From Halobacteriovoraceae bacterium (GTDB taxonomy: Bacteria > Bdellovibrionota > Bacteriovoracia > Bacteriovoracales > Bacteriovoracaceae), in contig PASN01000010.1 in assembly GCA_002711995.1 (NCBI GenBank), forward strand, positions 318,485 through 382,484: a stretch of DNA of 64,000 bases, in the 5' to 3' direction. Made by a program: the position numbers and the translations under genes. This document shows positions 11,213-42,858 of this stretch, in pieces (the first letter of the stretch is position 1; the number at the start of each line of letters is the position of its first letter). The notes below the pieces were generated by a model. That model did not search any database. It was not told the DNA's origin and saw only the letters and a program-made list of their open reading frames with translations.

Positions 11213-11836
11213 TTGACAATTCTACATGACCTAAACAATTCAAGATCCCAAAGAGTGGCATGGCTATTAAAAGAGCTTGGACTTGAATTTGAAACAAAAG
11301 ATTATAAAAGAGACCCAAAGACTATGAGGGCGCCAGACTCGTTAAAGTCTGTTCACCCTCTAGGGCTAGCTCCCATATTGGAAGATGGACAAGTTAAGCT
11401 AGCTGAGACAGGAGCAATCTTTCAATATCTTCTAGATAAATATGATGTTGAGGGCAAGCTTCATCCCCTTCCAGGCACAGAAAAGTACTATGACTACATC
11501 TACTGGCTGCATTTTTCCGAGGGCACTCTTATGCCTCCGCTTTTAATCCGCCTACTGCTCTCAAAAGTAGTAGAGAAAGTCCCAGTATTTATAAAGCCTT
11601 TCGCCATTGCAATCTCTAAGGGAATTGAAGCTGCCTATGTGGGAGACCAGATCAAGCGACTTTTCACTTTCATGAACGAGCGCCTTGGTGAGAATCCTTA
11701 CTTCTTGGGATCAGAGCTAAGTGCTGTGGATATTATGATGAGCTTCCCTTTAGAGGCCTCTCAAGAGAGAGTGAATCTTGAACTTTATCCCAATATCAAA
11801 AGCTTTCTAAAGGCCATAGAAAAAGTTAGTTCGTAG
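11213..11836 (+). CDS. Glutathione S-transferase family protein
   Basis: The N-terminal thioredoxin-like domain (LHDLNNSRSQRVAWLLKELG, residues 3-22) holds the catalytic-region Ser/Arg. The cis-proline motif LGLAPILEDG and ETGAIFQYLLDKY follow. An all-helical C-terminal domain covers about 90-200 (NPYFLGSELSAVDIMMSFPLE). It should conjugate or reduce electrophiles with glutathione in the cytoplasm. The start is TTG at 11213 behind AAAGGGAG; no in-frame ATG gives the complete first strand. The gene overlaps the convergent SDR by 11 bases. Confidence 0.85.
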   Translation: MTILHDLNNSRSQRVAWLLKELGLEFETKDYKRDPKTMRAPDSLKSVHPLGLAPILEDGQVKLAETGAIFQYLLDKYDVEGKLHPLPGTEKYYDYIYWLHFSEGTLMPPLLIRLLLSKVVEKVPVFIKPFAIAISKGIEAAYVGDQIKRLFTFMNERLGENPYFLGSELSAVDIMMSFPLEASQERVNLELYPNIKSFLKAIEKVSS

Positions 11837-13196: not shown

Positions 13197-16109
13197 TCAA
13201 TTCTTCAACTCTTTAACATCCATTAAAGCAGATAGATGAGATGAAAAGACTTCTTGATAGATAGGACTGCTTTTATCCGGGTCCTTTAAATCAATGGCCC
13301 CCACAATATTCTTAGGGTCAGTTTTTAAGTCCCCGCAACTCTCACCTTTAGATTTATAGAATGCGGTGGCGACACCATCTTTAACCATGAAGCAATTGGA
13401 AACTTCTTTGCCATTGAACTCCATTTTTACTTCATTTTCATAAACATCACTAAAGTGGTACTGGTTGTTTCCTCTGTTTTTAAAGTTATACAGTTCTGCA
13501 TCACTGTTGCCTAAAGTGGCCTTATGATTTTTGGCCACTTGTTCGACCATCGCGGCAGAGCTGGTCATTTTACTCATAAGCTCGAACGAGTCTTCCAAGT
13601 CATCTGGAATCAGCGCCTCTTTAAGAGAGTTTACTGGACTGTGAAAGATACCCGGCTCAAGAAAGTCTTCTATTTTGTCGGCCTCATTTAAGACGTAAAC
13701 CACACCATCTTTTTCATAAATAGTTGGGACTCTTTTAAATTTTGTCACGCGGTTAACATATATATTTTCAGGAATGACATCTGCAATTGTGGCCCTGTCA
13801 GCAAATACCACCTTATTGCCACCCAATTGAAAGTTATTGCTGTAAATCACGGACAAGAGAGCGTCTTGCATACACTTATCTTTGTCGGCCACTTCATCAC
13901 ACTCTTCTGGACGTGTGGGAGTGAAATCACTGGGAACCTTGTGACCAAAGTCGAAGTCGGTCATTTTTTCCAAAACACCCAGGCTTACTTTAAGATCAGT
14001 CCCGGAGAAATTAAAGGCCTTCTCTCCAAAGCCTAAAAATGTTGTTGGATCCTCATTTAAAATGACTCTTCTCCCCTTCAAAGTCTTAAGGCCATAGTTT
14101 GCTGTTAGGAATTTTAGATACATTTTAAGACCTTCCTGCTCTTTGCTAGACAGTGCGTTTAAATCAAAGTCTAAAATAACACCGGCATCCTGCAATTCAG
14201 AAACAATATTAGCGAGATCTTTATCAACATTGTCACCAGACACTGATTTCCTCTTAAGAGAGTAATCAACCTTACTCTTTTCCACATCAAACAGGCGATC
14301 ATTAAAGTTTCGAACAATCAGGACACCATCGGAAGTAAGCTCATTCTTCTTTGTTCCGCCTCCAGAGAGGTCAACTCTTACGCCCTTGACTCCCTTACCT
14401 TTTGCAAATAAGTAAGGCTGCAGCCTTCTTGATAGAAAGAAGTTATACTCCTGCGCGGCCCTTTTACTATCAAGCGGCAGACTCTCTATAACAATGGGGG
14501 CAACACTGTTGATGTATTTTTCTTTTTTAAAGATGTCTTTTCTGATTTTATTAATATCCTCTGGATATTGGTATAGTTGAAAGTGATACTGATCAGGATC
14601 TTCGCTTGAGGCAACCTTTCTCAGGCCTACCAGATTACCATTATCCAACCGATAGAACTCGCCCTGTCTCATCATGTTAATGGTTTTAATATCGATAAGG
14701 CCATCAGCTGGAAAAATGCTTGTTACAGACATAGTGCATGAGGTCCCATATAGTTCAGGGCAACCAGGCTGGGAATAAAACTCTCCTCCGCCCTGACTAA
14801 TACAAACTCCATTTTTCTTTTTGACGCCATTTTTCTCTTGAGAGAAGTACCCAGTGCACAACCCTGCACCTCCCAATGTTGAGGCCTGGGCTCCAACAGT
14901 TAGCCCCTTGGAGTCTCCAATATCGTATGTGGCCGTTACGGTGGAATTAAGACCATAACTTCCGTATACGTCGATATCATCATTTACCCTCATATGGCCT
15001 GTGGCCCTAAGGTCATAGCCATTTCCGGTGGAAAATGAATTGTTTAGTTTCAGCGTAACGTCTTTATTGTCATCAATGCCTTTGGAGACAATACTGTGCA
15101 GCCCCACTCTGGTCATTTGTTGGGCGAAGTCATCTAGTTTATAGCCTGTGCTTTCTTCTAAATAATTCTTCCCTCCAACTTCAGCTCCTACGGCGTAAAG
15201 AGAGGTACTGCCGTCGATATTGTTGTCTTTAAGGTAGCTCTTAAAATTTTTCTTTGTCTCATCAGACATTAGCATGGAGGACATTAGACCATTTGCCGTA
15301 ACTGGTGCTTCAGCATAAAGACTCATAACATTGCCGATAACACTGACAGTGTAAGTTGCGCCAAGCTTTGGCCCATTTAAATTTAAACCCGCACTGGCAC
15401 TTGCCCCCACAAAGCTTGTGCCAAAGTTGCCGGATAAAACTTCAATGTCTTCGATGTTAAACGATCCATCTTTTATAATTTTAAAATTATTATTTTCATC
15501 ACTTGAAAATGCCACAAGCTCGACTTCCTTGTCGTCCTTAAGACAAGAAACATTGTTGGCAAATTTTGAAAGAGCAGATTCGGAATATGTGGCCTGCTTG
15601 GAGGTTCTAAGTATCTCGTCCAGAATTTCAGGTTTAAATGAAATAAAACATTGCTTGTTGTCTATTCTTGCCTCAAGTATAACACTTGGAACAACGCCAG
15701 CACCTTTGGCCATAGTTTCATCAGGGCAAGAATAAGACATACTGTAAACTTCAGTCCTATCACCCCACATTTTCACTGTTGGGTCTAGATCCAAACCTTC
15801 TCCACAATTTAAATCCTCCACACCCATTTCAGATAAAACATCAGTGAATGGTTTTGTGCCAGACTCAATGAGTGACAGCTTTAGAAAGCTTGCCCATTGA
15901 GTATCATCCTCAGCTTCGCTTTTATTGGCCCCAGTGGCGCAAGGGCCTTTAGTTAGCTTTTGGGTTAAATCATCTTCTCCCCTCACAACCATTTCTACTT
16001 CAACTAGATCCTCAAGGATTCTCCTAACGGGTACTTTGCCAATCTCCGCAGAAGAAGAAAAAGCGCCTGTGCTCCAGAATAAAAAGATTGTGAAAAGAGT
16101 AAATTTCAT
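13197..16109 (-). CDS. Large exported protein of unknown function (970 residues)
   Basis: A Sec signal peptide is clear (MKFTLFTIFLFWSTGAFSSS, cleavage near residue 18-20), with TAGGAG before the ATG. The first 190 residues hold three or four Cys pairs (GPCATG, NCGEG, SCPDE, NKQCF). From about 225 to 440 the sequence alternates polar and small hydrophobic residues with many Gly, Tyr and Thr (GASASAGLNLNG, GAEVGGKNYL, YGLNSTVTATYDIG), which looks like beta-strand or barrel structure. The C-terminal half is mixed, Lys-rich and without a recognised domain. Likely location is the periplasm or outer membrane. A 9-base gap couples it to the downstream GNAT gene. I do not recognise the family. Confidence 0.75.
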   Translation of the reverse strand: MKFTLFTIFLFWSTGAFSSSAEIGKVPVRRILEDLVEVEMVVRGEDDLTQKLTKGPCATGANKSEAEDDTQWASFLKLSLIESGTKPFTDVLSEMGVEDLNCGEGLDLDPTVKMWGDRTEVYSMSYSCPDETMAKGAGVVPSVILEARIDNKQCFISFKPEILDEILRTSKQATYSESALSKFANNVSCLKDDKEVELVAFSSDENNNFKIIKDGSFNIEDIEVLSGNFGTSFVGASASAGLNLNGPKLGATYTVSVIGNVMSLYAEAPVTANGLMSSMLMSDETKKNFKSYLKDNNIDGSTSLYAVGAEVGGKNYLEESTGYKLDDFAQQMTRVGLHSIVSKGIDDNKDVTLKLNNSFSTGNGYDLRATGHMRVNDDIDVYGSYGLNSTVTATYDIGDSKGLTVGAQASTLGGAGLCTGYFSQEKNGVKKKNGVCISQGGGEFYSQPGCPELYGTSCTMSVTSIFPADGLIDIKTINMMRQGEFYRLDNGNLVGLRKVASSEDPDQYHFQLYQYPEDINKIRKDIFKKEKYINSVAPIVIESLPLDSKRAAQEYNFFLSRRLQPYLFAKGKGVKGVRVDLSGGGTKKNELTSDGVLIVRNFNDRLFDVEKSKVDYSLKRKSVSGDNVDKDLANIVSELQDAGVILDFDLNALSSKEQEGLKMYLKFLTANYGLKTLKGRRVILNEDPTTFLGFGEKAFNFSGTDLKVSLGVLEKMTDFDFGHKVPSDFTPTRPEECDEVADKDKCMQDALLSVIYSNNFQLGGNKVVFADRATIADVIPENIYVNRVTKFKRVPTIYEKDGVVYVLNEADKIEDFLEPGIFHSPVNSLKEALIPDDLEDSFELMSKMTSSAAMVEQVAKNHKATLGNSDAELYNFKNRGNNQYHFSDVYENEVKMEFNGKEVSNCFMVKDGVATAFYKSKGESCGDLKTDPKNIVGAIDLKDPDKSSPIYQEVFSSHLSALMDVKELKN

Positions 16110-17069: not shown

Positions 17070-17846
17070 ATGAACACAGAGATTATAGAAATCACAAATA
17101 ACTTTTGGAACATTCGCGGCTCTTTTAAGATAAAAGGCCTAATTGATATTGGAACCCACGCCTCCTTAGTTAAACTGGCCAGTGGAAAGTTTGTGTTTTT
17201 GGACTCTTTAACTTTGGACAATGACACGCTGGAGAAAGTCAACAGACTTACCAAAGATGGAGATGACTTAGAGGCGGTGATTAACCTCCATCCCTTTCAC
17301 ACAGTTCACACAGAATGGATGCATAAGACATTTCCCAATGCCAAACATTATGGAACCAAAAGACATTTGGAGAAGTTTCCAAGTTTAAACTGGGAAGAGG
17401 TAAAAAGTGAGGATGAGAAGCTCCACAAGCTGTACTCATCAGACTTAGAGTTTTCTGTGCCGAAAGGAGTAGATTTTATTCCAGAGGATGAGAACCTTCA
17501 CTTCTCTTCTGTACTCGCCTACCACCCTAGTTCTAAAACCATTCATGTTGATGACACATTAATGTATATTCAGTTGCCTGCGCTTTTAAAGTTTTTTGGA
17601 GTCTCAGACCATCTAGGGTTTCATCCAACACTTTCTAAGGTTTTGCAAAAAAGAAGTGGAGCTGCGGACGAGTTTAATCTGTGGGCAAAAGAAATGGCAG
17701 CCTCCTGGGCAGGCGCTAAAAACCTTTGTACTGCTCATAAGGGCAATATTCTAGAGAACGAGGATAGAGATCTACATAAAGAAATACTCAAGGCCATCGA
17801 AAGTATTCAGATCAAGTTAAACTCTCACCGAAATAAATATACCTAG
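17070..17846 (+). CDS. Metallo-beta-lactamase-like (DUF4336-like) protein
   Basis: The protein is 258 residues. The order NFWNIRGSFKIKGLIDIGTH, FVFLDSLTL, then AVINLHPFHTVHTEWM with closely spaced His, then FPNAKHYGTKRH, and later HVDDTLMYI and TAHKGNI follows metallo-beta-lactamase-fold proteins of the DUF4336 kind. The HPFHTVH cluster could bind metal, although the canonical HxHxDH is not intact. Probably cytoplasmic, as no signal peptide is seen. It converges on the PLP decarboxylase gene with a 4-base overlap. No Shine-Dalgarno precedes the ATG. The fold assignment is tentative. Confidence 0.6.
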   Translation: MNTEIIEITNNFWNIRGSFKIKGLIDIGTHASLVKLASGKFVFLDSLTLDNDTLEKVNRLTKDGDDLEAVINLHPFHTVHTEWMHKTFPNAKHYGTKRHLEKFPSLNWEEVKSEDEKLHKLYSSDLEFSVPKGVDFIPEDENLHFSSVLAYHPSSKTIHVDDTLMYIQLPALLKFFGVSDHLGFHPTLSKVLQKRSGAADEFNLWAKEMAASWAGAKNLCTAHKGNILENEDRDLHKEILKAIESIQIKLNSHRNKYT

Positions 17847-19066
17847 CTCCAAAACTGAATAAGCTTATCGATAGTTTCTCGCTCTTTAATGATGCGTACT
17901 TTTCCAGAATCTACTCCCAATACCTTTGGGGTAAATCTTGAGCAGTGTCTAGACCACATGGAAAGGGTATAGGCGCCGACATCGTGTATGAGCAATAGAT
18001 CTCCCTCTTCAATTGTTGGCAAACAGACCTCTCTAGTGAGAAAATCGCCGCCAAAACATAGGGGGCCGGCCACACTGTAAGTCTTGGACTCTTTAGAGAT
18101 TATTTCTCCATCACTGCTTAAAGCGGACATTTGGTGGTACCAATCGTTTGGTTTATAAATCCTTCGAAGAAACATATCGGCACCAAGGTGAGCAACAATC
18201 TGTTTATCCTCTTTTACATATTCAACGTTTGACACAGCAATTGCCGTGTCAGAGTAAATGCGTCGTCCAAACTCAGTAAGCAGCTGAAACCTGCCAGAGA
18301 ATAATTCAGGCATCGCGCGCTCTAAGGCCTCTGTGTATTCTTTAAAACCAACCTTAGGGTCATCTTCTCTGTAAACCACAGGAAGTCCGCCACCCAAGTC
18401 AAAGCGCTCAAGCCCTGACAGATCTTTTGTGGCCTCAAAAACTTTTAAAGTTCCTGCAACAAGCTCATCAATGGCCATTGCCTGAGAGCCTATGTGAACA
18501 TGCACACCAACAAGCCAAGAGTGTTTATCAAACGCACTTTTAATCTTGTCCATCCAGTCGTTCAATTTTACTCCAAACTTGGAGTCTTTACCGGCCACCG
18601 AAGTGTCACCAATTTTTCCAACCCCAATTTGTGGGTTAATTCTTAGCCCTGCTTTGAATTCACTTTGTCCCACTAGAGAATTAACTCTATCCAGTTCCTC
18701 AAAACTGTCGATATTGATGTAAATATTCTTTTCGATACAGAACTGAATCTCACTTTTAGTTTTTGCAGGTCCATCAAAGATTATCTTTTCCGCAGGCACT
18801 CCGCTTGCCAGTGCGATTTGAACCTCCTCTAAAGAGGCCGCTTCTGCGCCAAGCCCGTTTTCTGCTTGTAATCTAAGCATAAATGGAAGCGGACATGCCT
18901 TAATTGCTATCCCATGAACGGTATTTTTAGGAAATGCATCCTTTAGTTCAGCATAGCGATCTTTAACCAAACCTAGGTCATAGAGGATATAGGCCGAATC
19001 ATCTTCAGATAATACTTCAGAGCTATTTATTAATTTTACTAGTTCTTGAGATTTATTGATTTGCAT
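17843..19066 (-). CDS. Ornithine/diaminopimelate-type PLP decarboxylase (fold type III)
   Basis: Alanine-racemase-fold decarboxylase of 407 residues. The Schiff-base lysine lies in HGIAIKACPLP (Lys53), a variant of the usual YAxKAN. Then come GLGAEAASLEEV, FDGPAKTKSEI, GLRINPQIG, the His of VGVHVHIGSQ, the phosphate-binding FDLGGGLPV, EFGRRIYSD and GPLCFGGDFL with Cys, as in LysA-like enzymes. It should decarboxylate an amino acid such as diaminopimelate or a related compound. Its start overlaps the upstream PLP gene by 14 bases with GAGGAAG as ribosome site, so the two are coupled. It may be lysA, but the pairing suggests another product. Confidence 0.82.
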   Translation of the reverse strand: MQINKSQELVKLINSSEVLSEDDSAYILYDLGLVKDRYAELKDAFPKNTVHGIAIKACPLPFMLRLQAENGLGAEAASLEEVQIALASGVPAEKIIFDGPAKTKSEIQFCIEKNIYINIDSFEELDRVNSLVGQSEFKAGLRINPQIGVGKIGDTSVAGKDSKFGVKLNDWMDKIKSAFDKHSWLVGVHVHIGSQAMAIDELVAGTLKVFEATKDLSGLERFDLGGGLPVVYREDDPKVGFKEYTEALERAMPELFSGRFQLLTEFGRRIYSDTAIAVSNVEYVKEDKQIVAHLGADMFLRRIYKPNDWYHQMSALSSDGEIISKESKTYSVAGPLCFGGDFLTREVCLPTIEEGDLLLIHDVGAYTLSMWSRHCSRFTPKVLGVDSGKVRIIKERETIDKLIQFWS

Positions 19067-20861
19067 TTACTTCTTCCTCAACCAGATCAAAAAGCTTGTT
19101 CAGTAGCTTTTGATCGTTGTTAATTAAATATTCAAGACAATCGTCAAAATTGTAACTGCTCGTGCCTCGGTAAGCGTCTGTTACGTTCTTTGCACCAAGT
19201 GCGACCCTAAGCGCAAACCTCTTCTTATCTCCGGTGGAGATTTGAACCGGCTGCCCTATTTCACAAACAATATCCTCGGGAAAGCGCTTAACAGTCATGG
19301 CCGCGTGAATCTTTTTAAGTTGATCCTGACTAAAGGCCGGAGTTGTTTCAATCTCGAAAGGTATAATACTGTTGGCCTGGGACAGGGAGCTGTCATCACT
19401 TGGTAAAAGAGCGCTCTCTTTTAAGATATTTACCTTAAACTTGCCAGACTCAATCATTTTCTCAACACGCTTTCCCCACTTCAAAATAAAGAGATTGCTA
19501 AACTCTACGGGTATGCTGTCAAACTGTTTCATTTCGTGAAGCGCCACTTCCCATCGCATATACAATCCCCAGTTGGACCAAGTTTTGGAACTAGGGCTTC
19601 TTTTGAAAATCTCATTTATGCCAAATTCGTCAAAGTACTGATCATATTCTGATGGAAGCTCCATCTTGGACTCAATTAGGGTTTTAGTGTCATGCTCATT
19701 TAACAATAAGGCACCTGAGAAAGGCGCTCCCCCTATAAACTTTGAACCAGTAACAATGACATTCATTCCAAGCTCAAGGTATTGCTCTACGGAGTCACTT
19801 CTTAAACGCATTTGAGCGGCATCAACAATCATTACAACTTTGTCGCCAAAGTCTTTTTTTATCTTCATGGCCATGTCATAGGAAGGAATGCAAACACCGG
19901 TTTTTGAGGCGTGCACATAGTGAAAAACAACAACCCTGTCATCCTCCACCTGCTCCTTAACTTTATCGTATAGTTTTTGCTCTGAAGCTTTTGAATTAAT
20001 AACGTTTGTTTGTTCATCCCTTGTGTGAAAACTTTGAACAATTACATCGAGATTTGAATCATCAACGACATTTTCTCCTTTTTTAAGATCATGCCCAATG
20101 GGTGCCCTTCCAGAGAAGTGATTCAGTCCTGCGGCAAGTTTTGTTCCAGAGCCAACTTCCAAATCTCCATTTACAAAAACACACACTTTCTTGTGCTCTT
20201 TCTTAAAAAGTTCTTCGTGGCGACTCAGTCCAAGCCAGGTGCAGAGAAATTCGACGTCAGTTCCCGACGGAGTGGATATCAATGACACCTTTTCCTTTAT
20301 CAAAGGAGAAACGTAAAAAGAGAATATCTCATCCCTTTGCTTGTGCAGCAAAGTCTCTTTGTCCAGTTCACCAATTGCGTGTGCCGCCATTAGCTCAAAA
20401 TGGTTTTGCTCAATATGAAGATATGTCTCCAGAGAAACGCTAGAGCTTGTGCAGCTTGAGCGCTGATAGTCATATAAAGGTAATGTGGATGTGTGATATT
20501 TGTTTTTAAGCGTATTAGGGTCAATCGTGCTTCGATCATCACCACCTTGAGAGAGCAGCAAAAATGTTGGCATGTATAGCCAGTCCTCATCGCTTTTAAT
20601 ATCTGAGACTAGATCCTCACCTTCTTTAAAGCGAATAAGCTTTTCTCTCATTTTGTTTGCGATATTGGCCTTAAGATCCTGACTTAATTCTTTGTTCGTT
20701 ACACCAAGTCGATAAGAGATGTAGTCTTCAAAGGTGTCTTCAGCGTACTTGCCGGATAGAAGTTCAAGGTAGTTAAGAACAGGGGCGCCGTCTTCAAAAA
20801 TATAGTAAACGCCATTCTTCATCAAACGTATGTTATTGTTTTTACTTAGCTTCTCTAGCAT
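19053..20861 (-). CDS. Fold-type I PLP enzyme, first gene of a two-PLP-enzyme operon
   Basis: The protein is 602 residues. The C-terminal two-thirds reads as a type I aminotransferase fold: SLISTPSGTDVEF (phosphate-binding loop), VFHYVHASKTG, the ring-pairing Asp in VVMIVDAAQMRLRSD, and the Schiff-base lysine in IVTGSKFIGGAPFSGALLL. The first 200 residues have no clear match. It resembles class V or group II PLP enzymes, but the reaction cannot be named. GAAGGA precedes the ATG. The downstream decarboxylase starts inside this gene, so both proteins are made together and probably act on one amino-acid-like pathway. Confidence 0.7.
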   Translation of the reverse strand: MLEKLSKNNNIRLMKNGVYYIFEDGAPVLNYLELLSGKYAEDTFEDYISYRLGVTNKELSQDLKANIANKMREKLIRFKEGEDLVSDIKSDEDWLYMPTFLLLSQGGDDRSTIDPNTLKNKYHTSTLPLYDYQRSSCTSSSVSLETYLHIEQNHFELMAAHAIGELDKETLLHKQRDEIFSFYVSPLIKEKVSLISTPSGTDVEFLCTWLGLSRHEELFKKEHKKVCVFVNGDLEVGSGTKLAAGLNHFSGRAPIGHDLKKGENVVDDSNLDVIVQSFHTRDEQTNVINSKASEQKLYDKVKEQVEDDRVVVFHYVHASKTGVCIPSYDMAMKIKKDFGDKVVMIVDAAQMRLRSDSVEQYLELGMNVIVTGSKFIGGAPFSGALLLNEHDTKTLIESKMELPSEYDQYFDEFGINEIFKRSPSSKTWSNWGLYMRWEVALHEMKQFDSIPVEFSNLFILKWGKRVEKMIESGKFKVNILKESALLPSDDSSLSQANSIIPFEIETTPAFSQDQLKKIHAAMTVKRFPEDIVCEIGQPVQISTGDKKRFALRVALGAKNVTDAYRGTSSYNFDDCLEYLINNDQKLLNKLFDLVEEEVNANQ

Positions 20862-24531: not shown

Positions 24532-27500
24532 ATGAGTAAAAATAAATGGACATTTTGGATCGACTGCGGCGGAACCTTTACTGACATTGTTGCCATCAAT
24601 GACTCAGGTGAACACCGCGTTCACAAGCTTCTATCTCACTCCTCCCACTATGAATCAGCAGTGGTGCAAGGAATTTCCGATATAGTGGGACATACCGATT
24701 TCAAGAGCTCTGTCGCAGAAGTGAGACTGGGAACCACAGTTGCCACTAATGCCTTTTTAGAAAGAAGCGGTGTCGAGTGTGCTTTGATCACAACATTAGG
24801 CCATAAAGACTTGCTGGGGATTAGGAATCAAAGTCGCCCAGATCTATTTGAATTAGATATTAATAAAACTCCTCCTCTTTACAGCTTTGTCACTCATATA
24901 AAAGGACGCATGGACAGCAAGGGTGAGGAAGTCGTAGAACTTGATGAAGAAATCGCAAGATTTGAGCTGCAAAGAATTTTGGACAGAGGGATAAAGTCTG
25001 TTGCCATATCTCTTATGCATTCAACTGTTAATCCCGCTCATGAGTTAAAAGTTTGGGAAATTGCAAAAGATATGGGCTTTAGCTACATAAGTCTGTCCCA
25101 TCAGGTGAGTCCAATCGCGAAATACATCCCACGGACAGAGACTGCAGTAATTGACGCCTATCTTTCTCCCTACTTGCGTCAATATACTGAGTATCTTGAA
25201 AACAAGCTTCAAATACCAAACATCTACTATATGCAATCTGATGGAGGCCTTTGTTCAGGAAGCGAACTTAAAGGCTACAATGCTCTTCTTTCAGGCCCTG
25301 CCGGAGGACTAATTGGAGCTATAGATGTCGCTCGCTCTATGGGCCATTCCAAACTCATAACCTTTGATATGGGCGGAACTTCGACAGATGTTGCGATCTA
25401 TGACCAGGAGTTGTCAATAGATCCCTCCCCTGACTTTTATGGATTAAAACTTCTTTGCCCAATGGTTGATATACATACAGTTGCCGCAGGCGGTGGCTCC
25501 ATACTTAAATACGACAATGGCCGCTTTCAAGTTGGCCCTGAGTCAGCAGGTTCTACACCTGGCCCTGCATGCTACAGAAACGGTGGACCACTTACTGTTA
25601 CTGATGCCAATCTATACTTGGACCGACTTGAAGCTGACAAGTTCCCACACATTTTTGGTCCGAACCAAGATCGGCCTCTTGATCTAGAAATCGTTGATAA
25701 GAAATTCAAAGAACTGGAAGATAAAGTGGGAATGCCCGCAAAAGAGATCGCCCAGGGATTTCTTGATGTCGCAGTGGAAAGTATGAGCCGCGCCATTCGA
25801 AAGGTATCCATTGAGCGAGGACAGGATCCAAAAGACTTTTGTCTTGTAAGCTTTGGAGGCGCAGCAGGACAGCTTGCTCTTAAAGTGGCGCAGACTTTAT
25901 CAATGAGTGAGGTAATTATTCACCCATTAAGTTCTGTGCTCTCTGCATATGGCATTGGCAAGGCCCAACACCAAATGAGCTTCCAGGGAAGAAGTGAGTC
26001 AGACTTTAAAGAACTGGAAAGCAAAGCAAAAGAAAACTTTCCCTTCAAGAACCCAACTCTTCATAAACATTATCTTCTAAAGGCAAAAGGCAGTGATCAC
26101 GAAGTTGAGATCTCGGCGGATGATCAAGAAAAAGCTTTTGAAAAGTTTAGAAACTACCATCAAAAAACCTTTGGCCACCCGGCCAAAGAGATTGAGTGTG
26201 AAGCGGTTAAGCTTCAAATAACTTCCAAAGACTTTAAAGAGTTGCAAATCCATGCTGATTCTAAAGAGATCGAAGGGCCAAGCATCATCAGTGAGAACAA
26301 CACCTCCATTGTAGTGGAGTCCGGTTGGCAGGGCCAACGCCAAGATGATGGCCTTTGGGTTTTAAGATCCCATAATGCAAATAGCACTCAGAAAAGAGAT
26401 CCCAAAATTGAGCTTGAGATCTTTTACCAACGCTTTCAATTTATCGCTGAACAAATGGGAACAACACTTCAAAGACTTGCGGCCTCAATCAACATAAAAG
26501 AGAGAAACGACTTCTCCTGCGCTTTATTTACAAGAGACTGTGAATTGATCGCCAACGCTCCCCACATTCCAGTTCACCTGGGATCGATGGACAGAGCGGT
26601 CAGAGCTGTAAATGAAACATGTGATGTCTCACCAGGAGAAAGCTATATATTAAACTCCCCTGTATGCGGTGGGACTCACCTGCCAGATGTGACCATTATC
26701 ACTCCGGTCTTTAGTGAAGATGAGGTTATCATGTGGGTGGCCTCAAGAGGTCACCATGCGGACATTGGAGGCATAGCCCATGGTTCGATGCCTGGAAACT
26801 CAAAAAGCCTTAAAGAAGAAGGTGTAGTCATTACTCCCACAAAGATCTTTGCTAATGGAGAGCTGGATCTCCCCCTTCTAAAAAAGATACTGCAAGATTC
26901 AACATATCCGGTAAGAAATTTCGATATGAACCTGCACGACATAGAGGCCAAGATTTCTGCAAACCACAAAGGGGTCTCAGAAATCATACAGTTGGCAAAA
27001 CAGTACGGAGCTCAATACCTTGAACAAATGAGTGAGAGAATTCTAGACTACACTCACCAAAAAATTGTATCGATTCTAAACGAGTTCAAATCAAGCGAGA
27101 CCGAGAAGGTCATAAACAGCAAAAGGAAGCTCAAGGTTAAAATGCAAAGAGAGGGAGAAAAGACTGTCTTTGATTTCACAGGTTCCAGTGGACTCTTGGG
27201 AACAAATTTCAACGCTCCAGTTCCTGTGGTGCAGGCCTCTGTAATGTTCAGCCTACGCTCAATGATCGAAGAAAACATTCCACTTAACAGCGGCCTTATG
27301 CGAGCAATTGAACTGAAAGTTCCACAGGATTCGATGTTAAACCCTGGCGAGGACTCTCCCGTTGTTGCTGGCAACGTGGAAACATCTCAAGCGATCTGTG
27401 ACCTTATATTCCAAGCAATGGGTGTCAAGGCCAACAGCTATGGCAGTATGAACAATCTATCCTTTGGAAATGATGAGTTCCAATACTATGAGACAATCTG

Positions 27501-28362
27501 TGGAGGAAGCGGCGCTACTGCGAGTGCTCATGGCGCGAGTGCCGTGCAAGTAAACATGACAAATTCGCTACTAACCGATCCTGAAGTTTTTGAAACTCGC
27601 CTTCCAGTTAGAATTGAGCTTATGGGCATTCGCCATGGAAGTGGCGGTGCTGGTATGAATCATGGTGGGAATGGCGTGTACCGGAAGCTTTTATTTCTAA
27701 GTGATGTAAAAATAAATATGATAACCCAATCAAGAGAAGTTCCTCCTTCGGGAATCAAAGGCGGCGCAAAAGCGCAACGAGGAATGAATCTTCTTGAGGT
27801 GGACGGCGAATGGGTTGAGCTGCCGGAGTGTTTTGAAAAAGAAATTAGCGCCAATACCAGACTATGCGTTTGCACACCGGGCGGCGGTGGATATGGCGAA
27901 GGAAAAGATGAAACAAAACATCTTGTTTTTGGCTTTGGGTCTAATATGGATCTTGCGCAAATCAAAAAGCGCTGTCCAAGCAGCGAGCTAGTTAGAAGAG
28001 GCACTGTTAACGATCGCGAAATAAGATATACTCGCTACTCCCCTGTTAGAAAGGGCGGCGTTGCAGATATGTACAATGCTCCTGGGCATTATGTGTATGG
28101 ACTGGTCGTTTCAATGAACGACGAAGATTTAACGTTTCTTGATGATATTGAATGCGCTCAAAACGGCTATCAGAGAATTGAGACTAAGGCATTTGACGAC
28201 AACGGTGAAGAGTTCATTTGTCACAGCTATGATGTAATTGATAAAAAACCAGATATAGCGCCAACAAAAGTCTATGAGTGGCTGGTGTATTCGGGTGCCT
28301 ACAACTTAGGGGCCAACCAAAACTACCTAGACCGCCTCCAATTGGCCGGACATGTGCGATAG
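24532..28362 (+). CDS. 5-oxoprolinase (HyuA-HyuB) fused to gamma-glutamylcyclotransferase
   Basis: Single 1276-residue polypeptide. Residues 1-620 are the hydantoinase A half, with the ATP-binding actin-like motifs IDCGGTFTDIV (N-terminal) and FDMGGTSTDVAI (about 282). Residues 625-1125 are the hydantoinase B half (GTTLQRLAASINIKERND, GGTHLPDVT, RGHHADIGG). Together these are a complete ATP-dependent 5-oxoprolinase. From residue 1129 (base 27916) a gamma-glutamylcyclotransferase domain follows: LVFGFGSNMDLAQI, YVYGLVVSMN, LDDIECAQNGYQ with Glu1207 at the catalytic position, and an end like human GGCT (YSGAYNLGANQNYLDRL). The first activity would release 5-oxoproline from gamma-glutamyl compounds and the second would open it to glutamate. 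Cytoplasmic; monocistronic. Confidence 0.88.
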   Translation: MSKNKWTFWIDCGGTFTDIVAINDSGEHRVHKLLSHSSHYESAVVQGISDIVGHTDFKSSVAEVRLGTTVATNAFLERSGVECALITTLGHKDLLGIRNQSRPDLFELDINKTPPLYSFVTHIKGRMDSKGEEVVELDEEIARFELQRILDRGIKSVAISLMHSTVNPAHELKVWEIAKDMGFSYISLSHQVSPIAKYIPRTETAVIDAYLSPYLRQYTEYLENKLQIPNIYYMQSDGGLCSGSELKGYNALLSGPAGGLIGAIDVARSMGHSKLITFDMGGTSTDVAIYDQELSIDPSPDFYGLKLLCPMVDIHTVAAGGGSILKYDNGRFQVGPESAGSTPGPACYRNGGPLTVTDANLYLDRLEADKFPHIFGPNQDRPLDLEIVDKKFKELEDKVGMPAKEIAQGFLDVAVESMSRAIRKVSIERGQDPKDFCLVSFGGAAGQLALKVAQTLSMSEVIIHPLSSVLSAYGIGKAQHQMSFQGRSESDFKELESKAKENFPFKNPTLHKHYLLKAKGSDHEVEISADDQEKAFEKFRNYHQKTFGHPAKEIECEAVKLQITSKDFKELQIHADSKEIEGPSIISENNTSIVVESGWQGQRQDDGLWVLRSHNANSTQKRDPKIELEIFYQRFQFIAEQMGTTLQRLAASINIKERNDFSCALFTRDCELIANAPHIPVHLGSMDRAVRAVNETCDVSPGESYILNSPVCGGTHLPDVTIITPVFSEDEVIMWVASRGHHADIGGIAHGSMPGNSKSLKEEGVVITPTKIFANGELDLPLLKKILQDSTYPVRNFDMNLHDIEAKISANHKGVSEIIQLAKQYGAQYLEQMSERILDYTHQKIVSILNEFKSSETEKVINSKRKLKVKMQREGEKTVFDFTGSSGLLGTNFNAPVPVVQASVMFSLRSMIEENIPLNSGLMRAIELKVPQDSMLNPGEDSPVVAGNVETSQAICDLIFQAMGVKANSYGSMNNLSFGNDEFQYYETICGGSGATASAHGASAVQVNMTNSLLTDPEVFETRLPVRIELMGIRHGSGGAGMNHGGNGVYRKLLFLSDVKINMITQSREVPPSGIKGGAKAQRGMNLLEVDGEWVELPECFEKEISANTRLCVCTPGGGGYGEGKDETKHLVFGFGSNMDLAQIKKRCPSSELVRRGTVNDREIRYTRYSPVRKGGVADMYNAPGHYVYGLVVSMNDEDLTFLDDIECAQNGYQRIETKAFDDNGEEFICHSYDVIDKKPDIAPTKVYEWLVYSGAYNLGANQNYLDRLQLAGHVR

Positions 28363-29717: not shown

Positions 29718-30245
29718 ATGCTTAAGGCCATAACCTGCTTAATCGCTCTTTCTATTTGCTCTGCAAACGCTGAATCAATCCATAACGTGAAATTAGAATC
29801 AGCTCAAGGCAAGACCCCCGTGGACCTTTCAAGCTTTAAGGGTTCACCTCTGTTAGTTGTCAATATCGCCACACGATGTGGCTACACTGGACAGTTGGAG
29901 GATTTAGAGTCTCTTTATAGGGAGTACAAGGATAAAGGATTGAAAATAGTTGGAATTCCATCAAACTCATTTGGTGGCCAGACTCCAGAAAAGAATCAGG
30001 AAGTGGCAAAGTTTTGTAGGCTAAAGTACGGGGCAAGCTTTCCAATAACTAAGAAGCAAAGCTTCAAGGGAGATGACATCTCACCAGTGGCAAGCAAACT
30101 TTTAAAGCTTAGCGACAGAAAAAGTGTTGGTTGGAACTTTGAAAAGTTTTTGTTCAATAAAAAAGGCGAATTCGTAAAGTGGTTTCCCTCTTCTACAAGT
30201 CCAGAAGATGAATCGCTAAAGTCAGAAATCAAAGGCCTTCTATAA
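29718..30245 (+). CDS. Periplasmic glutathione peroxidase-like thiol peroxidase
   Basis: Thioredoxin-fold peroxidase of 175 residues with an N-terminal signal peptide (MLKAITCLIALSICSANAES). It has the GPx signature VVNIATRCGYTGQ with catalytic Cys, IVGIPSNSFGGQTP carrying the Gln of the active site, and VGWNFEKFLFNKKG carrying the Trp and Asn. It reduces hydroperoxides; bacterial Cys-type members usually take electrons from thioredoxin rather than glutathione. The signal peptide places it in the periplasm, which suits peroxide defence near the envelope. AAGGAG precedes the start. Confidence 0.87.
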   Translation: MLKAITCLIALSICSANAESIHNVKLESAQGKTPVDLSSFKGSPLLVVNIATRCGYTGQLEDLESLYREYKDKGLKIVGIPSNSFGGQTPEKNQEVAKFCRLKYGASFPITKKQSFKGDDISPVASKLLKLSDRKSVGWNFEKFLFNKKGEFVKWFPSSTSPEDESLKSEIKGLL

Positions 30246-32453: not shown

Positions 32454-33626
32454 CTAATTTTTCGGTGTTGGAGTATACATTTTTTTCATATAGACACCCG
32501 CCCACACTAATGCACCAATAATTAAAACTAGAGCAGCATATCCCAAGTGTTGCACATATGAACCTTTAATAAGGTGAGCGCTGGCCCTGGTCAAAGCTGC
32601 CAATACTACAAATAATCCTACGAGAAGATAAGGCCACTTTTTAAATTCAATATCAAGCGACTCATCACTATGGGCGACTATAACTCTGCTGGCCACCATA
32701 AGTGTCATTAAACAATAGCTTCCAATATAAATTAAATGCTTAATATGGATTGCTTGCTCAACTGAAAAACACAAGGTCCATGATCCTACAAGCAACATAA
32801 AGCATGAAAGCTTCAACATTTTTCCATGCCATTTCTCGGATTTGACTTTTTCATGCAAACGCCAGTACTTAATTGAGAAGTATGTTATGACGGTCGCTCT
32901 AAGAAAGAATGCCACCATCAAAGCCCCTGCTCCCTCAATAATAAGGCTTGCAACAAAAACAATTAAAGAAACAATGATATCTATAGGAATGACTGAGAGG
33001 AAAGGCAATGTTTTTTCATAAACCTTTCTTTGTCCAGAGACAATCTCAACAAAACCAAGTATTCCCGGTATAAGTCGGCCTCCAACTCCCAATATGAAAG
33101 ATGTCACCATAGCATCATAAAATAAAAGCTTTCCCCATGGCCTTAGAGCACCAAATATTCCCATCTCAAATTCAGATAAAAAGTTAATAAAACTTCCTAA
33201 AAGACCAAATATCACTCCACATCCAACGAAAACAAAAGTATAGGGAGGGTTTTGCTTTCTAAATAAAAAACGAGGCACTGCAAAGCATAAAAACATCACC
33301 CATCCAGAAGCTATACTTGCCCAAAAAAAAGTAAGGTTACCTAGAAAGTAGAAGATAAGAACACAGAGAGTTATAAAGATGAAAACCGACAACTCCTGCT
33401 TGGACAGAAAGTCTGTTCCTGTGAACCTTGGGACAGCGGTCAATAAAAATCCAATAATTGAGAAATACAAAAACCCGCCAATAAACAGGTTTGCATGTTG
33501 ACTCAAGGGAAAACCCCCAACTTCGAAAAATACATCCCCCAACCACAAACAACAAGAATAGAGCATGCTAATGATGGCGATGGGAAAAAATAGTTTAAAT
33601 GGATCTTTGCAAATCTTTTCAATCAT
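32454..33626 (-). CDS. nnrS: NnrS family membrane protein
   Basis: Polytopic protein of 390 residues with about twelve hydrophobic segments. NnrS features are present: KDPFKLFFPIAIISM at the start, SQHANLFIGGFLYFSIIGFLLTAVPRFTG (in pieces) and LGVGGRLIPGILGF. NnrS is a haem-copper membrane protein linked to nitric oxide stress during nitrate and nitrite respiration. It overlaps nrfA by 4 bases, so it is the last gene of the nrfHA-nnrS operon. Here it would protect against NO formed as a by-product of nitrite reduction. Confidence 0.85.
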   Translation of the reverse strand: MIEKICKDPFKLFFPIAIISMLYSCCLWLGDVFFEVGGFPLSQHANLFIGGFLYFSIIGFLLTAVPRFTGTDFLSKQELSVFIFITLCVLIFYFLGNLTFFWASIASGWVMFLCFAVPRFLFRKQNPPYTFVFVGCGVIFGLLGSFINFLSEFEMGIFGALRPWGKLLFYDAMVTSFILGVGGRLIPGILGFVEIVSGQRKVYEKTLPFLSVIPIDIIVSLIVFVASLIIEGAGALMVAFFLRATVITYFSIKYWRLHEKVKSEKWHGKMLKLSCFMLLVGSWTLCFSVEQAIHIKHLIYIGSYCLMTLMVASRVIVAHSDESLDIEFKKWPYLLVGLFVVLAALTRASAHLIKGSYVQHLGYAALVLIIGALVWAGVYMKKMYTPTPKN

Positions 33627-34957
33627 TTTTGAAGAAGCTCCTCACCCTTTCTAATTAGATTGAGAGATTTTAGTAAAACTCTTGCAGACTCTTGAGGTGC
33701 GTGGAAACCGTTTGAGTTTTCCGCTTCAACAAAGTCAAATAAGAATTGTGCGTCTCTTTGAATCTTTTGCATCTTTTTTATCTTAGGATGATTGGAATTG
33801 TTTTCCACTTTCTTGATGTAAGACACCAAGGCGTCAAATACAATATCCTTCATCTCGTGGTTTTTATCTTGAATATTATTTACTCGCTCAAGAAGCTTGT
33901 CTTCTGATATGTTGTGACAGGTTCTACACGATCTATTTGTTTTTAACATTGGGCTGTTCACATGATGGTCAGTGATTTTTATGGCCCCCACCTTTTTATA
34001 GGGCATATGGCAGTCCACACAGCTAACACCGCTTTTAGCGTGAATCCCCTGAGAGTAAGTTTCAAACTCGGGATGCTGCGCCTTAAGCACTTCCGCTTTT
34101 GTGAGCTTATGTGTCCAATCTTTAAAGCCCATTTCATTATAATACTCAAGCATATCATCGGCCTTTAGGCCTTTTGACCACGGATAAGTGAGTGTTTTGC
34201 CTTCTCCCTTAAAGTAGTACTCCACATGGCATTGGGCGCAAGTATAAGTTCTCATCTCCTGTCGAGACGCCATTTTATTTACATCGTAGTCATGAATTCC
34301 CTGCAACTTTTTAAAGGTCTTGATGCCTTCCATGAAGGCTGGACGAGTAACTCTTAGACTCATGTCTTTAGGGTTATGGCAGTCAATACAACTGACAGGG
34401 TGTTTGACATTTTTGGCCGCTTCAAAGTATGGAAGTTTGTTCAAAGCGTGAAAGCCTTTGTTTAAATCTCCATCTCCCAATTTCATCATGGCGCTGTAAG
34501 TGGATGCGTGACAATTGATACAAGTTCCAGGCTGGCCTACTTTCTGTCTTTTAGTGTGAATTTGGTCCTCTAACATGTAAGCATGCCCTCTTTCCTCTCT
34601 AAAATCTTTTGAAAAGGCGTACCCAGACCACATTGTGATAAAGCGCTTATCCAGTTTTAATTTGTCTTGGGCAACGACCGATCTAGGGTCATCACCATCA
34701 GGAACTCTCTGAATGGCCTCACTTCCGCCATAGCGGGTTCGCACCTGATCCACACTTTTTAGATAATCTTCATATTGGTAAGGAAAGTTTACTCCCCACA
34801 CTGCAGGATCGTCTTCAAGAGGTCCTATCGGTTTTAGGTGAACGATTTGATACTTTGATTCAACCTTTCTTTCAAAGATATTTAGAATCAGTAGTATGCA
34901 ACTCACAATTGTTACAAATGACGCCAGGCCAATAATTAAAGTCTTTTTTGTTTTCAT
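33623..34957 (-). CDS. nrfA: Ammonia-forming cytochrome c nitrite reductase NrfA (all-CXXCH type)
   Basis: Pentahaem periplasmic enzyme reducing nitrite to ammonium with six electrons. The N-terminal 28 residues form a signal/anchor. Five haem sites are visible: CINCH (146-150), CIDCH (190), CAQCH (240), CVDCH (313), CRTCH (344). The active-site haem, which carries Lys (CXXCK) in E. coli NrfA, here has His. Catalytic-region residues are present in CAQCHVEYYFK (Tyr) and YSQGIHAKSG (His). At 444 residues it is of normal length. It overlaps nrfH upstream and nnrS downstream by 4 bases each. Confidence 0.9.
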   Translation of the reverse strand: MKTKKTLIIGLASFVTIVSCILLILNIFERKVESKYQIVHLKPIGPLEDDPAVWGVNFPYQYEDYLKSVDQVRTRYGGSEAIQRVPDGDDPRSVVAQDKLKLDKRFITMWSGYAFSKDFREERGHAYMLEDQIHTKRQKVGQPGTCINCHASTYSAMMKLGDGDLNKGFHALNKLPYFEAAKNVKHPVSCIDCHNPKDMSLRVTRPAFMEGIKTFKKLQGIHDYDVNKMASRQEMRTYTCAQCHVEYYFKGEGKTLTYPWSKGLKADDMLEYYNEMGFKDWTHKLTKAEVLKAQHPEFETYSQGIHAKSGVSCVDCHMPYKKVGAIKITDHHVNSPMLKTNRSCRTCHNISEDKLLERVNNIQDKNHEMKDIVFDALVSYIKKVENNSNHPKIKKMQKIQRDAQFLFDFVEAENSNGFHAPQESARVLLKSLNLIRKGEELLQK

Positions 34958-37115: not shown

Positions 37116-38027
37116 TTAAAATACCTTCTTCGCCATCTCATAGGTTCCAGTGTAGGCCTTAACAGTCTCAGCGATATCTTTTGAGTACCCACCGCCCAAG
37201 GCCATAGTCACAGGTATTTGGTTTCTTTTAGCAAACTCAAATACCATTCGATCTCGCTCCTTTAGACCTTCATGACTCATCGACAGCTTTCCAAAGGCAT
37301 CTCCTTTTAAAGAGTCTACTCCCGCTTGATACAAAAGATGCTGAAATCCCATCTTAGAGAATTTAGAGAGGTCCTCACTTAGAGTTCTCAAATACTCTTC
37401 ATCACCCGTACCATCAGCAAAGCTTCGATCTAAGTGGGAAGGCACTTTTCTGTATGGATAGTTATGCTTTCCATGATAGCTTGTGATAAACACGTCTTTA
37501 TCTTTATTTAGGATCGAACTGTTTCCGTTTCCTTGATGAACATCCAAATCCAGAATTAATATTTTATATCCCGGCCTTTCACGATGAAGCCTACGCACGT
37601 TGACGGCAAAGTCGTTGAAAAAGCAAAACCCTTCACCAGAATCGGCATGAGCGTGATGAGTCCCCCCGGCAAGTGATGCAGAAAACCCAGTATCCAAAGA
37701 GCTGGTTATCGCTTGCCAAAAAGCTCCCTGGCTTCCAAGCGCTCTCCTTACCATCTCCTCAGTTAGAGGTAGTCCTATAGCGCGGGCCTTTTGGCGACTT
37801 AGAGAAAGATCAAGCACCTGTTCAATATAATCAGGAGTGTGTGCTAGATACAGATGATCAATATTGATTAAATCAGCAGCTATAATCTGAGAGTTTTTAA
37901 CAATTCCCTTCTCGATTAAACTCTTTCTAAGCAGGGAGTATTTATTCATCGGAAAGCGATGATTTGGATCTAACTCAACTTCATAGTGGTCTGAATAAAA
38001 AAAGTGATAATCGTCCCAACTCACCAT
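37116..38027 (-). CDS. Histone deacetylase superfamily amidohydrolase
   Basis: Zn-dependent deacetylase fold of 303 residues: FFYSDHYEVELDPNHRFPMNKY, SLAGGTHHAHADSGEGFCF (the tandem His charge relay), ILDLDVHQGNG (Zn-binding Asp and His), TSYHGKHNYPY, YQAGVDSL (second Zn Asp) and MALGGGYS. Bacterial members act on acetylpolyamines, acetoin-related compounds or other amides; the substrate here is not evident. The ATG follows TTAGG and lies 8 bases after the cupin gene ends, so the two genes are probably cotranscribed. Confidence 0.87.
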   Translation of the reverse strand: MVSWDDYHFFYSDHYEVELDPNHRFPMNKYSLLRKSLIEKGIVKNSQIIAADLINIDHLYLAHTPDYIEQVLDLSLSRQKARAIGLPLTEEMVRRALGSQGAFWQAITSSLDTGFSASLAGGTHHAHADSGEGFCFFNDFAVNVRRLHRERPGYKILILDLDVHQGNGNSSILNKDKDVFITSYHGKHNYPYRKVPSHLDRSFADGTGDEEYLRTLSEDLSKFSKMGFQHLLYQAGVDSLKGDAFGKLSMSHEGLKERDRMVFEFAKRNQIPVTMALGGGYSKDIAETVKAYTGTYEMAKKVF

Positions 38028-41331: not shown

Positions 41332-42858
41332 ATGATAACCAATCTTGTCGATAAGGCCTTAAACAAGGTCGAAAACGTCGGAAACAAGCTACCCGACCCT
41401 ACAACAATCTTTATAATCCTGACTTTCGCCATTTTGGCCATCTCTTGGCTTTTCTCGTTTATTGGAGTGAGTGCAGTGCATCCAGCAACGAAAGAAACCA
41501 TCTTAATAGAGAACCTTCTTTCCAGCGGGAATATTCAAAGAATTTTCACAGAAATGGTTCATAATTTTGCAAACTTCCCTCCACTAGGAATGGTTCTAGT
41601 AACTGTGGTTGGGATTGGTATTGCAGAAAAATCCGGACTTATTGACACGGCACTAAAAAAGCTTGTTACGGCGGTTCCAAAGAGTGCTCTGACAGCGACA
41701 TTGGTTTTTGGAGGGATATCAAGCTCCATGGCTGCGGACGCCGGCTATATTGTTCTTACTCCTCTTGGAGCAGTTTTATTTGCGGGCTTTGGAAGACATC
41801 CACTTGCAGGTCTTGCTGCTGCGTTTGCAGGTGTGTCTGCTGGTTTTAGCGCAAACCTTCTTCTAACTTCACTTGACCCTCTTCTATCAGGTCTTTCTAC
41901 TACCTCAGCACAGATTGTGGATCCAAACTATGAGGTTCACCCAACTGCCAACTACTACTTCATGATTGTTTCCACGTTTCTCTTAACAATTGTGGGCACT
42001 TTGGTTACTGATAAGATCGTCGAGCCTAGACTTGGAAAGTGGGAGCCAAAAGATACGAAGCTCGACACCACCCTTGGCAAGATATCAAGCAAAGAAAACA
42101 AAGGTCTTATTCTTTCAATTATTGCTTTTATCGCCTTTATGGTTGTTACAGCGATTATGGTTATTCCTGAAGGCGCAATTTTAAGAGACGCCCAAGGAGG
42201 ACTAGGACCGTTTTACAAAAGTTTGGTTCCTTTGATCATGATCCTCTTCCTAGTCTGTGGACTGGTATATGGGATTACTGCTGGAACAATTAAAAGTGAT
42301 AAAGACGCTGTAGGGATGGCCAATGAGTACATGGCGACTATGGCCGCATACATTATTTTATCTTTTGTTGCAGCTCAGTTTGTAACTTTCTTCTCTTGGT
42401 CGAATATGGGAATCGTTTCTGCGATTAAAGGAGCAGGGTTTCTTCAGGCGATTGGACTAAGTGGAATCCCTCTTATGATTGGATTTATCTTTGTTACAGG
42501 CACAATCAATATCTTCATTGGAAGCGCTTCTGCCAAATGGGCGATCATGGGGCCTGTATTCATTCCAATGTTTATGTTGATGGGCTTTTCTCCAGAGATG
42601 GTTCAAAACGTTTATCGTGTGGGAGATTCTGTAACAAACATTATCTCACCTCTTCTTCCATACTTTCCTATTATTATTGCTTTTGCTAAAAAGTACGACC
42701 CTAAGATTGGTTTAGGAACTTTGATCTCGACAATGCTTCCTTACTCAGTGGCATTTGCCATTATGTGGTCAATAGTGCTTTCAGTATGGATGCTTACAGG
42801 ACTTCCTCTTGGGCCAGAAGCTCCATCTTTTTACGATGCTTCACAGCTATCCAACTAA
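41332..42858 (+). CDS. abgT: AbgT-family transporter (p-aminobenzoyl-glutamate/antimetabolite type)
   Basis: Polytopic inner-membrane protein of 508 residues. AbgT-family signatures are LDKALNKVENVGNKLPDPTTIF-like at the N-terminus, PPLGMVLVTVVGIGIAEKSG, SSMAADAGYIVLTPLGAVLF, AAAFAGVSAGFSANLL and GSASAKWAIMGPVFIPMFML (in pieces). Family members import p-aminobenzoyl-glutamate or export sulfonamides. No abgAB peptidase genes adjoin it. AAAGGAG lies upstream of the ATG and a hairpin terminator follows. Confidence 0.9.
   Translation: MITNLVDKALNKVENVGNKLPDPTTIFIILTFAILAISWLFSFIGVSAVHPATKETILIENLLSSGNIQRIFTEMVHNFANFPPLGMVLVTVVGIGIAEKSGLIDTALKKLVTAVPKSALTATLVFGGISSSMAADAGYIVLTPLGAVLFAGFGRHPLAGLAAAFAGVSAGFSANLLLTSLDPLLSGLSTTSAQIVDPNYEVHPTANYYFMIVSTFLLTIVGTLVTDKIVEPRLGKWEPKDTKLDTTLGKISSKENKGLILSIIAFIAFMVVTAIMVIPEGAILRDAQGGLGPFYKSLVPLIMILFLVCGLVYGITAGTIKSDKDAVGMANEYMATMAAYIILSFVAAQFVTFFSWSNMGIVSAIKGAGFLQAIGLSGIPLMIGFIFVTGTINIFIGSASAKWAIMGPVFIPMFMLMGFSPEMVQNVYRVGDSVTNIISPLLPYFPIIIAFAKKYDPKIGLGTLISTMLPYSVAFAIMWSIVLSVWMLTGLPLGPEAPSFYDASQLSN

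Follow-up and report, generated by a model that had tools for sequence, protein, structure and literature searches.

Within the 64,000-nucleotide stretch of Halobacteriovoraceae DNA analyzed here (hereafter, the window), a single open reading frame encodes a 1276-aa protein that is, judged from its sequence, a complete single-chain HyuA-HyuB 5-oxoprolinase-type enzyme followed by a gamma-glutamylcyclotransferase (GGCT) domain. A preliminary description, made from the sequence alone, had proposed this in-frame arrangement, which is borne out by five Pfam matches that all exceed curated cut-offs; NCBIfam models returned related enzymes only, far under their cut-offs. The features of the gene are as follows.

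24532-28362, + strand: whole gene, 1276-aa HyuA-HyuB-GGCT fusion; single ORF with an ATG start and no internal stops.
24553-25074, + strand: Hydant_A_N domain, residues 8-181 (Pfam, 3.9e-50).
Inside the Hydant_A_N domain, + strand: phosphate-1 motif DCGGTFTD at residue 11 (motif search).
25132-25968, + strand: Hydantoinase_A domain, residues 201-479, the ATP-binding half (Pfam, 1.1e-91).
Inside the Hydantoinase_A domain, + strand: DMGGTSTD at residue 279 and GSTPGP at residue 340 (motifs as in PMC8453981).
26404-27900, + strand: Hydantoinase_B domain, residues 625-1123, the metal-dependent ring-opening half (Pfam, 9e-165).
26509-26511, + strand: Asp660, equivalent to the CapB metal ligand Asp41 (alignment to 6yra_B).
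26677-26679, + strand: His716, metal ligand (alignment to 6yra_B; ligands from PMC8453981).
26686-26688, + strand: Asp719, metal ligand (same alignment and source).
26752-26754, + strand: His741, metal ligand (same alignment and source).
27901-27924, + strand: short joint, residues 1124-1131, leading from the HyuB tail TPGGGGYG to the GGCT domain; its sequence differs among eight species.
27925-28341, + strand: GGCT domain, residues 1132-1270 (Pfam, PDB sequence match and predicted fold).
27934-27948, + strand: FGSNM loop, residues 1135-1139, corresponding to human GGCT Tyr22-Gly23-Ser24-Asn25 with Tyr replaced by Phe (alignment).
28150-28152, + strand: Glu1207, equivalent to human GGCT Glu98, proposed acid/base catalyst (alignment; role from PMC7022552).

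A dihydroorotate dehydrogenase gene lies upstream in divergent orientation, and unknown genes lie downstream in convergent orientation. Elsewhere in the window are a predicted protein of 970 aa (13200-16109, - strand), which begins with a signal-like segment and matches nothing in Pfam, a histone-deacetylase-family protein (37119-38027, - strand) and two adjoining genes, one for NnrS and one for a cytochrome c552 of nitrite reductase type (32457-34957, - strand). An ornithine/DAP/arginine-type PLP decarboxylase gene (17846-19066), not adjacent to the fusion, overlaps with the end of another gene (together 17846-20861, - strand) whose 602-aa product lacks a Pfam match and reads like a PLP-dependent transferase.

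In the 5-oxoprolinase half, all three ATP motifs of the HyuA family (D.GGTFTD, DMGGT and G..PGP) are found, at residues 11, 279 and 340, and the CapB metal ligands Asp41, His99, Asp102 and His124 align with Asp660, His716, Asp719 and His741 as an Asp-His-Asp-His site (motifs and ligands taken from PMC8453981). The best plasmid homologues of this half are single-chain proteins from rhizobia and Paraburkholderia at 40-41% identity; one homologue at about 40% is annotated as a 5-oxoprolinase. Putative fragments of human OPLAH align with the same half at 41-43%, which serves as a lead only. ATP-dependent lactamases of the HyuA/HyuB family act on several rings, the superfamily taking in caprolactamase, N-methylhydantoinase and carboxylases, and many members annotated as oxoprolinases may use other substrates (PMC8453981). 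The HyuAB half could thus hydrolyze another lactam or hydantoin, with the fusion joining unrelated or differently ordered steps, but we regard this as highly improbable: caprolactamase and N-methylhydantoinase match this half much more weakly than do the single-chain proteins of putative 5-oxoprolinase type, at about 40% identity, and the pairing with GGCT, an enzyme whose product is 5-oxoproline, in itself speaks for that compound as the HyuAB substrate.

The C-terminal region is matched in Pfam by both GGACT (residues 1132-1235, 2.8e-6) and AIG2_2 (residues 1188-1269, 6.1e-8). Among PDB sequences, the best match of residues 1123-1270 is human GGCT (E 8e-12), which a profile built from eight fused GGCT domains recovers at 1.4e-16. 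The structure of residues 1125-1276 predicted by AlphaFold2 from 19 aligned sequences has a mean pLDDT of 93.4. Human GGCT chains, among them 2i5t, 2rbh and 3cry, take the first six places among its PDB matches (TM 0.85-0.86, rmsd 1.8-2.0 Å, E 5e-16 to 4e-15); B. subtilis YkqA, ChaC2 and GGACT rank below them. The preliminary description had named the lack of a structural match to GGCT as grounds for refutation, and human GGCT proves to be the top fold. By both sequence and predicted fold, this part is clearly closer to human GGCT than to ChaC2 or GGACT.

The residues tell a similar story, with one departure. Human Glu98, described as the acid/base residue of the human enzyme (PMC7022552) and the residue altered in PDB entry 3cry, aligns with Glu1207, as anticipated in the preliminary description, and its equivalent is kept in 19 of 19 family sequences. 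Invariant in the eight fused and eleven stand-alone sequences are Phe1133, Gly1136, Asn1138, Ala1178, Gly1190, Glu1207, Tyr1213, Tyr1233 and Tyr1248, the three tyrosines corresponding to human Tyr105, Tyr125 and Tyr139 when counted on the alignment to human GGCT. The FGSNM signature noted earlier is present at 1135-1139, though nothing had been remarked about its first position: Gly1136 and Ser1137 of the Y-G-S loop are kept, and the usual Tyr is Phe1135. This change, found in all eight fusions, is the sole departure among the pocket and loop residues compared.

The Pfam matches to both GGACT and AIG2_2 leave room for an active GGCT domain that works on another substrate (gamma-glutamylamines, gamma-glutamyl-polyamines or glutathione) while still supplying 5-oxoproline to HyuAB. 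Family members share a fold yet differ in substrate (PMC12756093, PMC7022552), and the decarboxylase gene at 17846-19066, although not adjacent, could be read in the same direction. We consider this quite unlikely, as fold and sequence are both clearly nearer GGCT than GGACT or ChaC.

We find that the architecture is shared. A search of 129 genomes of the order identified it in seven further genomes at 57-68% identity, one copy being N-terminally incomplete on a short contig. A species-wide scan with two narrow peptide patterns (84,980 species) returned seven loci, all in Halobacteriovoraceae, Halobacteriovorax, Bacteriovorax or Bacteriovoracia MAGs, and these are the same seven species. Across the phylum, PF06094 matches occur in 103 of 369 genomes, and every match in a frame of more than 332 aa belongs to one of the eight fusions. 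Neither the rest of the phylum (369 genomes) nor the narrow-pattern scan of 84,980 species yielded a fusion outside the family. No plasmid fusion was found either: none of the top plasmid HyuAB homologues extends past the HyuB tail, and the three plasmid GGCT matches examined are free-standing frames of 126-188 aa; viral contigs gave no fusion match. The fusion thus appears restricted to eight species of one family (Halobacteriovoraceae/Bacteriovoracia MAGs), marine relatives of predatory bacteria.

Since seven further species have this architecture, with the joint common to eight independent assemblies, chance cannot account for it and misassembly or a frameshift is ruled out. Relative to the window protein, the GGCT part is 53-68% identical, HyuB 59-69% and the linker (residues 480-620) 28-40%, and third codon positions are near saturation in every part of the gene. 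The GGCT part is therefore conserved like HyuB and far above the linker, indicating that the domain is maintained by protein-level selection.

Two close relatives, in genomes G033 and G030, encode the 5-oxoprolinase without the GGCT part, having lost it or never had it. A tree built on HyuAB places the fused protein of G034 and the unfused protein of G033 as sisters (99/100) within the fused group. Grouping all fused proteins into one clade is rejected (p 0.0056), and all eight fusions share the same joint. The nesting of G033 together with the common joint makes a single gain followed by one or more losses the simplest account, in which relatives would show secondary loss of the GGCT part. 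This history is read from the HyuAB tree, in which the unfused G030 has no settled place; a tree of the GGCT part by itself gave no resolution. No GGCT remnants were found beside the unfused 5-oxoprolinase genes. The G030 protein terminates just past its TPGGGG tail, and its gene has an N, an ambiguous base, a few codons ahead of the stop, at about 4925-4940 of L011. Besides an unfused 5-oxoprolinase, G033 and G122 carry a free GGACT-type gene elsewhere; the generalization that no genome of the family has both parts separate holds for AIG2_2 and fails for GGACT.

The range of rings on which ATP-dependent lactamases act, noted above, counts against a bifunctional enzyme, and so do three further points: every fusion has Phe in place of the loop Tyr; the GGCT fold serves other functions elsewhere, as in allophanate hydrolase and Paulinella transit peptides, and the matched proteins 4iss, 5i8i and 9i09 use it non-canonically; and G033 and G030 show that the HyuAB half can do without GGCT. 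These three points favor an alternative in which HyuAB is an active 5-oxoprolinase and the GGCT-fold domain, weakly catalytic at most, binds 5-oxoproline or gamma-glutamyl compounds to regulate or feed it. Such a role is unlikely in our view, given that the catalytic Glu and the three pocket Tyr are invariant and that the domain is as strongly conserved as HyuB.

The genome to which the window belongs also encodes a glutamate-cysteine ligase, GshA (PF04262, 2.4e-148), a divergent GshB-like ATP-grasp protein (6.5e-22 to the E. coli GshB structure 1gsa, under the NCBIfam cut-off) and a gamma-glutamyltransferase (GGT) that scores over its cut-off and, with a lipoprotein-like N-terminus, looks exported. 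Neither the PxpA family nor the ChaC family (PF04752) is matched in this genome, and the fusion gene accounts for the only HyuB and the only GGCT-type domain found, which makes the fusion the only route found, and hence the only candidate here, by which gamma-glutamyl compounds would be turned into 5-oxoproline and then glutamate. These data suggest a complete gamma-glutamyl cycle in some Halobacteriovoraceae that does not involve ChaC or PxpABC. Neighboring genes vary between fusion genomes and no conserved operon partner was seen, so no partner gene is implied. The window holds a glutathione-peroxidase-family protein (29718-30242, + strand) and a glutathione-S-transferase-like protein (11213-11833, + strand), which are consistent with glutathione use by the organism, as well as an AbgT-family transporter of aminobenzoyl-glutamate type (41332-42855, + strand), a possible importer.

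GGCT enzymes cyclize a gamma-glutamyl residue, HyuA phosphorylates a lactam with ATP and the HyuB metal site opens it. We propose that the fusion is probably a bifunctional enzyme that serves salvage within the gamma-glutamyl cycle; its two activities, the sequence in which they act and the precise substrate are inferred from sequence and model. Via Glu1207, the GGCT domain would cyclize the gamma-glutamyl moiety of a gamma-glutamyl-amino acid (or of gamma-glutamylcysteine), so that 5-oxoproline and the amino acid are set free; the HyuA domain would then phosphorylate 5-oxoproline with ATP, and the HyuB metal site would open the ring to give glutamate. The consecutive-step logic of the preliminary description is thus supported at the sequence level, while its suggestion that the fusion might channel a reactive intermediate found no support. 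5-oxoproline is described as relatively inert in PMC13398684, which makes shielding an unconvincing reason for the fusion, and no channel is indicated; the HyuB+GGCT model (mean pLDDT 72, about 35-75 in the GGCT region) is too poor to place the domains. Joining the two enzymes may raise the local concentration of 5-oxoproline and fix the ratio of the two activities. A more speculative, and rather doubtful, extension is that the active sites cooperate, with 5-oxoproline passed from GGCT to HyuA and the ATP step pulling the cyclization. In that case one protein would be a machine dedicated to gamma-glutamyl salvage, in bacteria whose gamma-glutamyl cycle is otherwise complete, and glutathione acquired from prey is perhaps what it handles.

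Each half looks functional and is of a known enzyme type, and their combination appears new and lineage-restricted. To our knowledge, GGCT and 5-oxoprolinase are separate proteins in other organisms. The author of the preliminary description knew of no account of the architecture, and we likewise found none in the open-access literature searched. Here, one protein joins enzymes for two successive steps of the gamma-glutamyl cycle, through which glutathione is broken down. That GGCT and 5-oxoprolinase are linked genetically in nature supports a physiological coupling of both reactions in bacteria, and the fusion provides one chain on which the coupling of the two steps, or channelling of 5-oxoproline between them, is directly testable.

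Several known systems share parts of this design. The PxpABC proteins are unrelated to the HyuA-HyuB type, and the PxpA family is absent from the window's genome. This bacterial 5-oxoprolinase catalyzes the same reaction as is proposed for the 5-oxoprolinase half (PMC13274462). Caprolactamase CapAB (6yra) and N-methylhydantoinase (7hk5) belong to the HyuA/HyuB family, and the four metal ligands align with CapB, but they act on other substrates, are much less similar and lack the GGCT domain. Allophanate hydrolase/urea amidolyase (4iss, 5i8i) offers an architectural parallel, a GGCT-like fold inside an amide-cleaving enzyme, although its amidase half is unrelated and the fold match remote (TM about 0.5). 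Single-chain 5-oxoprolinases of the eukaryote type (OPLAH/OXP1-like) have the same HyuA-HyuB order in one chain, the ATP motifs and the metal ligands, whereas the Rhizobium and Paraburkholderia relatives examined stop at a TPGGGG or TPTGGG tail and the fusion adds GGCT. Finally, human GGCT (C7orf24; PDB 2i5t, 2pn7, 2rbh, 3cry) shares the fold (TM 0.86), the catalytic Glu and the three pocket Tyr with the fusion at 27-29% identity, with Tyr22 replaced by Phe1135; the human protein is free-standing, while here its counterpart forms the C-terminal domain of a larger enzyme.
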